From Nitrospirota bacterium (GTDB taxonomy: Bacteria > Nitrospirota > Thermodesulfovibrionia > Thermodesulfovibrionales > JdFR-88): a stretch of 64,000 nt of DNA. Below are positions 3,926 through 57,488 of the stretch, one piece after another. The first letter of the stretch is position 1. The number at the start of each line of letters is the position of its first letter. Where the stretch lies: NCBI GenBank assembly GCA_014874185.1, contig JACWAF010000035.1, positions 248,001 through 312,000 on the forward strand, written 5' to 3'. Made by a program: the position numbers and the translations under genes. Under the pieces are notes generated by a model. The model saw nothing but the letters and a program-made list of their open reading frames with translations. It ran no database searches and was not told where the DNA came from.

Positions 3926-3970
3926 AATCATTTCCTGTTTGAATGAAGATTTAGAAATTAATGTCCGGTA

Positions 3971-4104
3971 ATCCCCCTCTGTCCCCCTTTAGAAAAGGGG
4001 GATTTTAAATCCCTTTCATGAAGGAGTGGGTTAAGGTCCCCTCCTGGGAGGGGTGCAGGGGTGGGTTGTCCCCCTCTTTTCTAAAGAGGGGTCAGGGGAG
4101 ATTA
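3971..4104. repeat. Cluster of G/C-rich palindromic repeats (family A/B)
   Basis: Three repeat units lie between accC and thiE. The first (3971-4010) has a hairpin TCCCCCTTT/AAAGGGGGA. The second (4035-4067) has TCCCCTCCTGGGAGGGG followed by a G-rich tail. The third (4068-4104) has CCCCTCTTT/AAAGAGGGG followed by TCAGGGGAGATTA. Close relatives of each recur in many gaps of this window. The hairpins could also end transcription, but no T-run follows the first. Confidence 0.85.
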
Positions 4105-10875: not shown

Positions 10876-10919
10876 AAATCCCCTCTTAAATTAAGGGGGG
10901 ACAGAGGGGGGTTATCTCC
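10876..10919. repeat. Family A palindromic repeat
   Basis: The hairpin AATCCCCTCTTAA/TTAAGGGGGG is followed by ACAGAGGGGGGTTATCTCC. It matches the unit at 16641-16690 closely. It lies upstream of the cytochrome operon (minus) and the aldolase gene (plus), in a divergent gap. Confidence 0.8.
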
Positions 10920-15154: not shown

Positions 15155-16669
15155 TTGGATAAAAATCTTGGCCGGAAAATCTCCCCTCGCCCCTCAACCT
15201 GCACCCCAAAAAGTCTGCGCCTTTTCGGGGACCCCGTTCCAAAGAGGGGTAATTCCTCCCTTTGGCAAAGGGAGGTTAGGTGGGATTTTATAAATCAATG
15301 TTGCAATCGTATTCCCCTTGAGAGAAATCTGGCGGCGGTTTTCATCTCCGTTTTCTTTTTACTTCTCCTTTCTGCAACATCCTTCGCCATGGACGTAAAA
15401 CGGGAGGTCCTTCCAAACGGACTTGTGCTCCTTTATTCTGAAAAGCACAATCTTCCGCTTGTGATGGTGGACCTTACCGTAAAGGCGGGGCCGCTGGACG
15501 AACCGGCTGACAAGGCCGGGCTTGCGTATCTCACATCGGCCCTCCTTACGGAAGGCACAAAAACAATGACCTCCGCCGGGATAAGCAACCAGGTAGACTT
15601 CATCGGCGCGGATCTGGAGGCGTCCACCAGCGACGACTTCACGACCGTGTCGCTCTCCGTACTGAAAAAGGACCTGGACAAGGGTTTCCGGATATTCTCG
15701 GACTGCGTGCTGGACCCGGTATTCGACCCCAGGGAGATCGCGCGGGTGAAGGCGCAGACGAAGGACAGCCTGAAGCAGGCTGAAGACGACCCGGAGTTTG
15801 TGGCCCGGAAGGCGTTCAAAAAGGCCGTTTACGGCCCGTTCCCGTATGGCAGGCTTGTGCAGGGCTCGCCGCAAACACTGGACGCGATAACCAGAAACGA
15901 CCTCGTAAAGTTCCATGACCGGTTCTATGTGCCGGCCAATTCGATCCTCACCGTGGTGGGCGACATCACCCCCGCGGAGCTTAAAGCCCTTCTTAACAAG
16001 TATTTCGGCAACTGGCAGGGGAGGCCCTTTCCCGCGATGGCCAGCCCGCGGGGGCCGCAAGAGCCGAAGCCCCAGGCCTGGTTCATAAACAAGGAGATCA
16101 CCCAGGCCACAATCCTTTATGGGAACCTGGGCATCAGGCGCGACAACCCGGACTTCTACGCCGCAAGCGTTATGAACTACATCCTTGGCGGGGGCGGGTT
16201 CGCCTCACGCCTGATGGCCGATATCAGGGACAAACTGGGGCTTGCCTATGACGTCCACAGCTACTTCACCACGGACAAGCATAAGGGGATATTCGAGATA
16301 GGCGTGCAGACGAAGAACCGCTCGGCCAAGGAGGTGATAGACCTGGTGGACAGGGATATAGAGCAGATCCGTTCCAGGCCCGTAACCGCCCAGGAGCTGA
16401 AGGACGCAAAGGCCTATCTCACCGGCAGCTTCCCCAGGAAACTGGACACGATGCGCAAGATAGCGGACTTCCTCTCCCAGGTGGAATTCTATGACCTCGG
16501 GCCGGACTTCATTGACAAGTATCCAGGGTATATAAACCGGGTAACCGCGGATGACGTACTCCGCGCGGCAAGGAAGTACATAACTCCCGATAAAAGGGTC
16601 CTTGTCGTGGTCGGCAATCAGTCTGAAACCGGTCTGAAGCTAACCCCACTCTATCCCCCCTTAAATTAA
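15155..16669 (+). CDS. M16 peptidase-like protein, inactive partner subunit
   Basis: M16 fold with the zinc motif lost: where HxxEH should stand, the sequence reads AGLAYLTSALLTEGT. It is probably the regulatory half of a heterodimer with the preceding active M16 protein. A signal peptide (NLAAVFISVFFLLLLSATSFA) begins only around residue 57. The stretch before it is translated from palindromic repeats and is unlikely to be genuine. The TTG at 15155 is therefore doubtful. CTG 15329 or ATT 15311 would give a proper secreted form, and ATG 15389 would lose the signal. The last residues (LTPLYPPLN) and the stop also come from a repeat at the 3' end. Confidence 0.85.
   Translation: MDKNLGRKISPRPSTCTPKSLRLFGDPVPKRGNSSLWQREVRWDFINQCCNRIPLERNLAAVFISVFFLLLLSATSFAMDVKREVLPNGLVLLYSEKHNLPLVMVDLTVKAGPLDEPADKAGLAYLTSALLTEGTKTMTSAGISNQVDFIGADLEASTSDDFTTVSLSVLKKDLDKGFRIFSDCVLDPVFDPREIARVKAQTKDSLKQAEDDPEFVARKAFKKAVYGPFPYGRLVQGSPQTLDAITRNDLVKFHDRFYVPANSILTVVGDITPAELKALLNKYFGNWQGRPFPAMASPRGPQEPKPQAWFINKEITQATILYGNLGIRRDNPDFYAASVMNYILGGGGFASRLMADIRDKLGLAYDVHSYFTTDKHKGIFEIGVQTKNRSAKEVIDLVDRDIEQIRSRPVTAQELKDAKAYLTGSFPRKLDTMRKIADFLSQVEFYDLGPDFIDKYPGYINRVTADDVLRAARKYITPDKRVLVVVGNQSETGLKLTPLYPPLN
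15175..15290. repeat. Composite family A palindromic repeat overlapping the 5' end of an M16 gene
   Basis: Arms AATCTCCCCTCGCCCCTCAACC and GAGGTTAGGTGGGATTT are roughly inverted around inner hairpins, including CCCCAAAAAG...CTTTTCGGGG and CCTCCCTTTGGCAAAGGGAGG. The unit sits where the start and ribosome site of the second M16 gene would be expected, and seems to have displaced them. Confidence 0.75.
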
Positions 16670-16690
16670 GGAGGGACAGAGGGGGTTAAG
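16641..16690. repeat. Family A palindromic repeat supplying the stop codon of the M16 gene
   Basis: TAACCCCACTCTATCCCCCCTTAA/TTAAGGAGGGACAGAGGGGGTTA forms a nearly complete palindrome about 50 bases long. The TAA at 16667-16669 that ends the upstream M16 gene lies in its centre, so the repeat has replaced the original 3' end. It probably also acts as a transcript-end hairpin. Confidence 0.8.
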
Positions 16691-47031: not shown

Positions 47032-47161
47032 CTCCGTTTGCTTTTTAAAATTCGGGTTCAGAAAATAGGTTATCTTCCATTTAAGGCATCATGGGCTTGA
47101 CCACAAGTTCGCTGTCACTAAAAAAAGCGGGTCTTCGCGTAGAAGTGTGGGGTTTTTTCAT

Positions 47162-47198
47162 GTCCCCCTCTTTGGCAAAGAGGGGTTAGGGGAGATTT
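47162..47198. repeat. Family A palindromic repeat, 3' border of a DUF559 gene
   Basis: TCCCCCTCTTTGGCAAAGAGGGG followed by TTAGGGGAGATTT. It lies 5 bases beyond the stop of the minus-strand DUF559 gene. Its tail arm (TTAGGGGAG) faces the gene, and is the inverse of the arm at the other border. Confidence 0.85.
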
Positions 47199-47203
47199 CT
47201 TAA

Positions 47204-47551
47204 TCATAATTCACTCCAAATTTTTCCTAAGACTACATTAAGATTACACAGCACCTCTTTGTCTGACAACCTGAGAACGGTTATTCCAGTTTTCAACATA
47301 TAATCATCTCTTTTTTTGTCCTGTATTACCCCTTCGGCGCAATAATGCTGCCCGCTGTCAATCTCAATAACCAGTTTTGATTTTGGACAATAAAAATCAG
47401 CAATGTAGTTGCCTATGGTCTTCTGCCTGTAAAATTGATACCCTTTCAATTGCTTGCCCCTGAGTTTTGACCATAACAATTTCCCAGCATCTATCATGTT
47501 GCTTCTTAAATTTCCCGACAGATGTTTCAGGCTTTTGTTACACAGAAGCAT
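47204..47551 (-). CDS. DUF559 (Vsr-like) endonuclease-domain protein
   Basis: 115 residues from the ATG at 47551. This start is preferred because the upstream in-frame ATG lies at the edge of a repeat. It matches DUF559, a PD-(D/E)XK fold related to very-short-patch repair nucleases. NMIDAGKLLWSKLRGKQLKGYQFYRQKTIGNYIADFYCP leads into KLVIEIDSGQHY, with Asp in ADFYC and Glu/Asp/Gln-His in VIEIDSGQHY as the likely catalytic and metal residues. VLRLSDKEVLCNLNVVLGKI closes the domain. Inverted palindromic repeats border both ends, as for the second DUF559 copy at 56967. It is AT-richer than its neighbours, which suggests acquisition. Confidence 0.85.
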   Translation of the reverse strand: MLLCNKSLKHLSGNLRSNMIDAGKLLWSKLRGKQLKGYQFYRQKTIGNYIADFYCPKSKLVIEIDSGQHYCAEGVIQDKKRDDYMLKTGITVLRLSDKEVLCNLNVVLGKIWSEL

Positions 47552-47577
47552 TGTCTTTCCAGGAGTTTTTTCATTCA

Positions 47578-47614
47578 AATCCCCCCTCACCCCCCTTTTC
47601 TAAAGGGGGGAACA
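47578..47614. repeat. Family A palindromic repeat, 5' border of a DUF559 gene
   Basis: AATCCCCCCTCACCCCCCTTTTCTAAAGGGGGG. On the gene's strand it reads hairpin, then GTGAGGGGGGATT, directly before the coding start. The second DUF559 copy has the same order (hairpin, GTGAGGGG) at 56930-56966. Confidence 0.85.
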
Positions 47615-47858: not shown

Positions 47859-47968
47859 CACCCTCCCCCAGCCCCTCCCTCAAGGGAGGGGAATTTAAAG
47901 AGTTTGGGGCACGGCCTCTCTCCGGTCCCCTCGCCACCTTGGGGGAGAGGGTTAGGGTGAGGGGTATT
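47859..47968. repeat. Two family A palindromic repeat units after nrdJ
   Basis: The first unit is CACCCTCCCCCAGCCCCTCCCTCAAGGGAGGGGAATTT. A short spacer follows, then CTCTCTCCGGTCCCCTCGCCACCTTGGGGGAGAGGGTTAGGGTGAGGGG. The outer arms CACCCTCCCCC and GAGAGGGTTAGGGTGAGGGG are inverted, so the pair can fold into one large structure. It lies 5 bases after the nrdJ stop and may end that transcript. Confidence 0.8.
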
Positions 47969-56539: not shown

Positions 56540-56580
56540 AACACGTGACCATTTTGGACCTGGTTTTGGGTATTCAGGCC

Positions 56581-56603
56581 GGTTCAAGTTTGCAACTTGA
56601 ACC
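56581..56603. repeat. Perfect palindrome
   Basis: GGTTCAAGTT-TGC-AACTTGAACC has a 10-base-pair perfect stem and lies 30 bases before the inverted-repeat element. Its ends resemble that element's termini (GGTTCAGGTTGCAAACC), so it may be a collapsed copy. Confidence 0.6.
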
Positions 56604-56633
56604 CATAGTTGGTTTTCAGATCACCAATCCTAT

Positions 56634-56802
56634 GGTTCAGGTTGCAAACCATATCTGTCCAATAAATTTTTTGGACAGCATTTCAATTAAGGGAAAAAGT
56701 TTTTTTCGTGGGAGTCACCCGCCCACGGGTGACTCGATCCGCTTTGGAACAGAAAGGTCCTTTTCAGATTATCTTGGACAGCAGTGGTTGCAAACCTGAA
56801 CC
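56634..56802. mobile_element. MITE-like element with 29-base terminal inverted repeats
   Basis: The left end GGTTCAGGTTGCAAACC...CTGTCCAA and the right end TTGGACAG...GGTTGCAAACCTGAACC are inverted copies of about 29 bases with few mismatches, enclosing about 110 bases. Inside are the stems CTGTCCAA/TTGGACAG and GAGTCACCC/GGGTGACTC. There is no coding capacity. About 70 bases of the left half recur in reverse orientation at 61881-61950. Clear target-site duplications were not seen. Confidence 0.65.
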
Positions 56803-56829: not shown

Positions 56830-56861
56830 GTCATCCCGAACTTGATTCGGGATCTGTCTTT
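56830..56861 (+). repeat. 32-base repeat (family D), left copy
   Basis: It contains the stem TCCCGAA/TTCGGGA within GTCATCCCGAACTTGATTC. It recurs at 57389-57420 in reverse orientation with 30 of 32 bases identical. The two copies bracket the DUF559 pseudogene and its own family A borders. Confidence 0.8.
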
Positions 56862-56929
56862 GATTTTCTCCGCGACTTCTTGTCAAGGTGGGCGGAAAAG
56901 ATTTAGATTACCTCTGCGTGCGGGATTTA

Positions 56930-56966
56930 TTCCCTCTCTTAAGATAAGAGGGGGTGAGGGGTGGTT
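56930..56966. repeat. Family A palindromic repeat, 5' border of the DUF559 pseudogene
   Basis: TTCCCTCTCTTAAGATAAGAGGG followed by GGTGAGGGGTGGTT, ending exactly at the ATG. It has the same order and orientation relative to the gene as at the other DUF559 copy. Confidence 0.85.
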
Positions 56967-57354
56967 ATGAATTTGAGGAATGATCCGGCGTTGAAGCAAA
57001 GGCGCCGGGAATTGCGACGTAATCAAACCGATGCGGAAAAATCCTTCTGGGCTAATGTGCGGAATAAGCAATTCTTTGGATTGAAATTTTTCCGTCAATA
57101 CAGCATCGGCCCATATATTTTGGATTTTTACTGCCCTGCCCTCAAGCTTGCTGTAGAATTGGATGGCGGACAGCATCTGCAATGCGAAAACCAGGAATAC
57201 GATGCGCCCGCTCCGAGTATCTGAAAGCTCTTGATATAGAGGTGATGCGGTTTTGGAATAATGAGGTGTTGCTTAATATAGGCGGAATTTTAGCCAGGCT
57301 GGAGGCGAAGGTAACCCCTCCTGACCTCCCCTTTCATAAAGGGGAGGGATTTTA
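56967..57354 (+). pseudogene. Frameshifted DUF559 (Vsr-like) endonuclease gene
   Basis: The first part reads MNLRNDPALKQRRRELRRNQ through FWANVRNKQFFGLKFFRQYS to DFYCPALKLAVELDGGQH, with the DUF559 catalytic residues kept. At about 57205 the frame breaks (a one-base loss in GATGCGCCCGC), and the first frame stops soon after. The other frame continues as RSEYLKALDIEVMRFWNNEVLLNIGGILARLEAK and runs on into the 3' palindromic repeat. A sequencing error could produce the same picture. It is a homologue of the gene at 47204, but diverged rather than a copy of it. Confidence 0.8.
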
Positions 57355-57388: not shown

Positions 57389-57420
57389 AAAGACAGATGC
57401 CGAATCAAGTTCGGCATGAC
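57389..57420 (-). repeat. 32-base repeat (family D), right copy
   Basis: Reverse complement of the left copy at 56830-56861, differing at two paired positions that keep the stem intact (CCGAA/TTCGG). No obvious target-site duplication lies outside the pair. Confidence 0.8.
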
Positions 57421-57488
57421 GGTTAAAAAAAACTTCAAGGTAATTAAAAGAATATGGAATATTTTATAAGGTAAATTAATCTATCTTC

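Follow-up and report, generated by a model that had tools for sequence, protein, structure and literature searches.

RAYT transposases are flanked by inverted REP sequences, which they spread, and boxC/triplex repeats, familiar from Escherichia coli since the 1990s, occur in abundance across hundreds of genomes. For these boxC/PIT/TM motifs, triplex folding of the E. coli sequence has been demonstrated in vitro, and presence/absence variation and strong instability have been described, with an unclear mechanism (PMC4666352). Holder et al. 2015 never found transposase or integrase remnants near the E. coli sites, and the published accounts tie no gene to the repeats (PMC4666352). A link between the DUF559 protein YcjD and Vsr dates from 2005 (PMC1189080), and the Caulobacter DUF559 protein VsrA causes SOS-inducing DNA damage once the cytosine methylase or methylation is lost; a mismatch-repair role has been proposed for it (PMC12907096), which counts against a mobilising function. 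In this literature DUF559 proteins were already predicted or argued to be Vsr-like, but they were read as repair enzymes, with genomic repeats left out of account.

The window analysed here is a stretch of 64,000 nucleotides from a Nitrospirota genome. Its two DUF559 genes and the repeat units discussed below are as follows (positions within the window).

3969..4104 (3969-4003, minus strand; 4067-4104, plus strand): lone unit pair, tails outward (nhmmer; unit finder)
10879..10914, plus strand: solitary unit (nhmmer; unit finder)
15253..15288, plus strand: solitary unit of type b, CCTCCCTTT..AAAGGGAGG-TTAGGTGGGATTT (nhmmer; unit finder)
16641..16685, no strand assigned: solitary palindromic unit, readable on both strands (nhmmer; unit finder)
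47160..47198, plus strand: 3' border unit of copy 1, hairpin and TTAGGGGAGATTT tail toward the gene (nhmmer 3e-9; triplex-unit finder)
47204..47551, minus strand: DUF559 (Vsr-like) nuclease gene, copy 1 (Pfam PF04480, E 2e-28; residue conservation, 80 related loci)
47577..47614, minus strand: 5' border unit of copy 1, hairpin and TGAGGGGGGATTT tail toward the gene (nhmmer 4e-10; triplex-unit finder)
47860..47965, no single strand: two more G/C-rich units just past copy 1, one of triplex type (47860-47891, minus strand) and a boxC-like GGGAGAGGGTTAGGGTGAGGGG (~47943-47965, plus strand) (sequence; unit finder)
56928..56967, plus strand: 5' border unit of copy 2, tail inward (nhmmer 1e-5)
56967..57304, plus strand: DUF559 copy 2, frameshifted, with matches at 56991-57218 and, in another frame, 57206-57304
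57312..57350, minus strand: 3' border unit of copy 2, tail inward (nhmmer 3e-7)

The border sequences of copy 1 are ATGTCCCCCTCTTTGGCAAAGAGGGGTTAGGGGAGATTT (47160-47198, plus strand) and TGTTCCCCCCTTTAGAAAAGGGGGGTGAGGGGGGATTT (47577-47614, minus strand), and both take the form of a hairpin followed by TTA/TGA and a G-rich tail that faces the gene. The initial annotation had described an inverted hairpin repeat at each end of the gene at 47204-47551, the same layout at a second DUF559 locus at 56967, and about ten lone repeats. The inverted borders were recovered at both loci, though the second gene is frameshifted, and the estimate was right: among 15 units in the window, four are DUF559 borders and 11 lie elsewhere, a few of them weak. 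The 15 units compare with 0-1 per window in 20 Markov-simulated windows, and the rule by which the unit finder called them (pyrimidine arm, loop, purine arm, short gap, mirror-image purine arm) is blind to DUF559. Outside the units of copy 2 lies a second, unrelated inverted palindrome pair of the GTCATCCCGAACTTGATTCGGGATCTG type (56838-56862 and 57392-57423), which resembles CGTC-tagged REPs; to our knowledge, the latter have been reported without a transposase. A further palindromic family, of the GGTTCAGGTTTGCAACCTGAACC type, was seen near DUF559 loci of this genome, at 56560-56800 in the window and upstream of another locus (L004).

The PF04480 profile match of copy 1 scored 98.6 bits, against a curated cut-off of 20.6. 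An AlphaFold2 model of the DUF559 protein has a mean pLDDT of 90; among solved structures it comes closest to 3hrl, a DUF559 protein from Neisseria, and to the homing endonuclease I-Bth0305I, with AbaSI/PvuRts1I more distant and TnsA weakly similar. The modelled protein is predicted to have the Vsr/EDxHD homing-endonuclease fold. Alignment columns E22, D51, E62, H68 and D77, the likely catalytic residues, are invariant in the 80 loci. Copy 1 lacks the first glutamate (E23G, the loss of an otherwise invariant residue) and carries T20I and G66S, and is probably inactive; given this loss and the frameshift in copy 2, both copies in the window are probably dead. DNA nicking or cutting by this enzyme class is well grounded, given the structural relatives, the link to Vsr (PMC1189080) and the damage caused by VsrA (PMC12907096).

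The detailed unit census covered about 417 kb of the genome, with pattern counts over the whole of it; one unit pattern has 104 exact matches genome-wide and the reversed pattern has 0. Five true DUF559 loci are present in the assembly (L001-L005), and all five have units on both sides. Lone units in this genome are mostly paired with their tails outward, the opposite of the inward orientation at DUF559 genes. In two loci, L001 and L005, the gene stands between two direct copies of the whole unit pair (partly decayed at L005), a layout also found in Sinorhizobium (L156) and in a candidate-phylum genome (G024, L167/L178). The L001 copy, on another contig, is intact and keeps all conserved residues; tandem ~66-bp units with a type-a hairpin flank it up to the contig end (G000:C31:15018-17200). 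No unit was found near the RAYT-like gene of this genome, and no Rfam family matches the repeats. The stretch C30:208352-208553 was considered as an internally deleted form of copy 2 and rejected, its ends matching and its interior being an unrelated palindrome.

The flanking repeats that the initial annotation had proposed to look for in relatives are present. Among 80 DUF559 loci fetched as best alignment matches, and thus not a random PF04480 sample, inverted repeats at both ends (score of at least 15 between the two 150-bp flanks of the gene) were found for 47 of 79 testable DUF559 genes, versus 4 of 667 neighbour ORFs (Fisher 3e-48) and 0.2% of random placements. These loci span Proteobacteria, Nitrospirota, Desulfobacterota, Chloroflexota, Bacteroidota, Cyanobacteria, Bacillota, Planctomycetota, Patescibacteria and others. 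The unit finder placed an inward-facing unit within 300 bp of 61 of the 80 genes, and on both sides of 39. Triplex-type units are about 36 times denser next to DUF559 than in the remainder of the loci (3.1/kb in the flanks versus 0.087/kb in the other 948 kb). The unit nearest to DUF559 points inward in 95 cases and outward in 18 (p 8e-14), and unit pairs that do not span a DUF559 gene comprise 36 divergent, 11 convergent and 11 tandem pairs. Two figures count against a mobilising role: ~40% of the sampled DUF559 genes have no clear border inverted repeat, and 19 of 80 have no inward unit within 300 bp.

DUF559 occurs in 43 of 72,556 plasmid records and 2 of 50,697 phage records, and its rarity in both collections led us to reject it as plasmid or phage cargo. 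DUF559 reading frames (L009, L192-L221) often extend into the border repeat, giving protein tails such as PTPTLPRKRERE and TPALSQRARG, so that some annotated protein ends may be encoded by the repeat. Two loci, L011 (G004:C50) and L016 (G003:C65), share identical 1831-bp stretches on contigs that are each 12,110 bp long; for these reasons they probably represent one contig shared between two assemblies by mis-binning.

The covariation between nuclease clade and repeat sequence that had been anticipated is also present. Nuclease identity and repeat similarity correlate with a Spearman rho of 0.51 overall and 0.49 for between-phylum pairs, and 0 of 2000 permutations came near. Hairpin and tail covary as well: over 107 borders, stem arm and tail match as mirror images at 0.81, versus 0.68±0.01 when tails are swapped between loci (purine arm and mirroring tail are, for example, AAAGAGGGG and GGGGAGATT, AAAGGGAGG and GGAGGGATT, or GGGAGAGGG and GGGTGAGGG). 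Since a tail mirrors its own purine arm far better than swapped tails do, the third strand is constrained jointly with the hairpin, as an intrastrand triplex demands. The units have a pyrimidine arm, a purine arm and a second purine arm mirroring the first, and end in TTA/TGA/TCA and a G-rich tail; the GTAG (or CGTC) foot tag is absent. Judged by these sequence features, the repeats belong to the known boxC/PIT/TM intrastrand-triplex family.

Two exact unit patterns were counted in 148 genomes of the window's phylum, with Y1_Tnp (the RAYT superfamily) as control family. The 62 genomes with DUF559 hold 1877 of the 1982 units and the 86 genomes without it hold 105 (MWU 1e-12), although the genomes are interrelated and the copy-number p-values are not free of shared ancestry. 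Genomes with and without DUF559 have 24.2 versus 1.0 units in the absence of Y1_Tnp, and 31.7 versus 1.4 in its presence. Within DUF559-positive genomes, Y1_Tnp had no effect (31.7 versus 24.2, p 0.31), and this conditional test rejects RAYTs as the explanation of the repeats. Exceptions are G032 and G057, which have at least 20 units and no DUF559 match. A dedicated partnership of nuclease and repeat is strongly supported.

In E. coli, the DUF559 protein YcjD is present in 3365 of 5426 genomes, and boxC units lie downstream of ycjD; a strain that lacks ycjD at this place lacks the units there too. Two observations count against a mobilising role. The boxC units at ycjD are on the 3' side only, and ~38% of E. 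coli genomes have no ycjD, yet a 50-base boxC query matches 5100 of 5426. Strains vary at pstB-pstA, where a 92-bp stretch that contains boxC is either present or absent; it is flanked by an 8-bp direct repeat, AACCGTGT, of which a third copy, 7 bp long, follows the tail; the site is filled in 12 of 29 evenly sampled rows having the pst locus. As clean empty sites, yihR-yihS and zntA-tusA were rejected, the former because it is not clean and the latter because the difference is an ordinary REP/PU element. The two strains compared at zntA-tusA (L223 versus L227) both retain a boxC unit, next to which only one of them has the REP/PU stretch.

Empty and filled sites, whose comparison had been proposed in the initial annotation, thus exist in E. 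coli, and they exist also at the pheS-pheT junction of Bradyrhizobium. There, a unit-DUF559-unit insert of a first clade occupies the junction in 11 of 30 species, a second DUF559 clade, whose repeats have a sequence of their own, sits at the identical junction in 5, a lone unit is present in 1 and other genes in 3; in the remaining 10 the junction is empty, the genes overlapping by GTGA with neither a scar nor a unit. The states are scattered on the flanking-gene tree, in which the first clade changes state at least 8 times across well-supported branches. Part of this scatter could stem from exchange via homologous flanks, so that pheS-pheT shows turnover and not necessarily transposition. 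A target duplication was rejected here, only a 3-4 base overlap (RTGA) being found, which codon constraint can explain. The junction (L192-L221) is a hot spot of single-gene inserts, with two DUF559 clades and unrelated genes placed at the stop/start overlap. One locus (L196) has a single unit where relatives have unit-gene-unit(s), and a gene-less unit pair (L094) is absent from the orthologous place in two relatives.

In G003, a genome of the window's family, we found a 554-bp DUF559 element with ends GGCTCT...AGAGCC and many shorter internal-deletion copies of it (167-437 bp), with exact 8-bp target duplications at 5 of 9 examined copies. Copies longer than 554 bp were not found in G003, and the longest complete one encodes only DUF559. 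Terminal inverted repeats with 8-bp duplications would fit a putative DDE transposase as well. A search for the IS1595 family found no IS1595 transposase in three genomes including G003, and the element was rejected as an IS1595 passenger. A MITE-like family was recorded at L019-L050 of this genome, with ends GGCTCTTCAGGGTTT and AACCCGGTAGAGCC and 8-bp duplications; its transposase was not found. Clear target duplications were seen in G003 and at a single E. coli site but not at pheS-pheT, which counts against a mobilising role.

It is likely that DUF559 is the dedicated nuclease of boxC/PIT/TM triplex units, working in a RAYT/REP-like way with an unrelated enzyme and repeat. The basic element is [hairpin-tail] gene [tail-hairpin], that is, a gene for a stand-alone Vsr/EDxHD-type endonuclease of ~115 residues between two inverted units. 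Each unit consists of a pyrimidine-purine hairpin, 2-3 bases and a purine tail in mirror image to the purine arm, an arrangement that would let one strand form an intramolecular triplex. The nuclease would recognise the folded unit, either extruded or single-stranded in replication, and nick beside it; host repair and replication would then copy the unit, or unit-gene-unit, to other places. Lone units and pairs would be non-autonomous products, with internal deletion and recombination between direct copies as other possible origins. What the data show is that gene and repeat are associated, that nuclease and repeat as well as hairpin and tail covary, that repeat number goes with nuclease presence, that orthologous sites vary in occupancy, and that gene-less derivatives share the ends of the full element; from this we infer mobilisation of the repeats by the nuclease as the simplest reading.

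It might be supposed instead that a RAYT, another transposase or replication slippage spreads the repeats and that DUF559 rides along by recombination. Recombination at the repeats is real, as illustrated by the single unit left at L196 and the genes enclosed by directly repeated whole unit pairs in G000 (the present genome), Sinorhizobium and G024, and 8-bp duplications accompany the DDE-like ends of the G003 copies. Yet only DUF559 tracks the repeats, with Y1_Tnp without effect in DUF559-positive genomes; the RAYT-like gene of G000 has no nearby unit, and G003 has no IS1595 transposase while its longest complete element encodes DUF559 alone. Sequence covariation with the repeats across phyla is likewise not expected of a passenger, and we consider this explanation unlikely.

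Less probable still is homing, in which a free-standing enzyme akin to I-Bth0305I cuts empty alleles and repair copies the gene in, the units being a recognition site or by-product. DUF559 resembles I-Bth0305I in fold and sequence, and such a process would fit the two nuclease clades at one pheS-pheT junction and the scarless empty alleles of relatives; homing would not be expected to give multiple copies at unrelated sites of one genome (7-13 matches) or gene-less repeats by the hundred, and the empty junction contains no unit. That the host keeps DUF559 as a structure-specific or mismatch-repair nuclease for triplex/hairpin DNA or deaminated cytosines, with the adjacent units regulating or terminating transcription, seems very improbable. 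The damage caused by Caulobacter VsrA upon loss of cytosine methylation (PMC12907096) and the instability of E. coli triplex loci (PMC4666352) speak for it, but similar-sized neighbour genes lack such borders, and a selfish element, rather than a housekeeping gene, is suggested by the patchy distribution, the internal deletions and the multi-copy families in decay.

The RAYT-like role that the initial annotation proposed for a Vsr-like DUF559 nuclease is supported as regards layout. Both systems have one nuclease gene between inverted short palindromes, gene-less single and paired palindromes dispersed in the host genome, and a repeat type that tracks the enzyme clade. In contrast to RAYTs, DUF559 is of the PD-(D/E)XK/Vsr-fold and not an HUH/Y1 (IS200-type) transposase, its units have no GTAG (or CGTC) tag, and its palindromes bear a mirror-repeat tail through which a triplex can form. 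The likeness to I-Bth0305I (PDB 3r3p) and Vsr lies in the fold and, from sequence, in the likely active-site arrangement, but those are intron-encoded or mismatch-repair enzymes, and bordering palindromes have been described for neither. Terminal inverted repeats with an 8-bp duplication, as in G003, recall a DDE insertion sequence, although the only such family searched, IS1595, provided no transposase.

The statement that no such system had been described holds in part: the repeats are the known boxC/PIT/TM motifs (PMC4666352), which in E. coli adjoin ycjD, but a literature search, covering neither bioRxiv nor subscription journals, found no paper linking DUF559/YcjD with palindromic repeats. 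Nor did it find a described mobile system with a lone Vsr-type nuclease and triplex-forming ends. No component is homologous to known palindrome-plus-nuclease systems, and for these two reasons we rate the nuclease-repeat system as new in kind; on a stricter view it could be a new variant of the REPtron layout. A further step, a new class of transposable element in which a lone EDxHD/Vsr-type nuclease, with known transposase chemistry absent, mobilises triplex-folded units in trans, including E. coli YcjD/boxC and extending to most bacterial phyla, is a tentative proposal, plausible and on balance somewhat doubtful.

No gene had previously been tied to the spread of boxC/triplex repeats, and DUF559 supplies a candidate which, judging from its genomic associations, may be regarded as the best one for the enzyme that spreads them. 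The nuclease is present in most E. coli genomes, making the question of repeat spread directly testable, and a widespread protein of unknown function gains a likely role. The system would stand beside RAYT/REP as a second and unrelated case of the palindrome-plus-nuclease layout.
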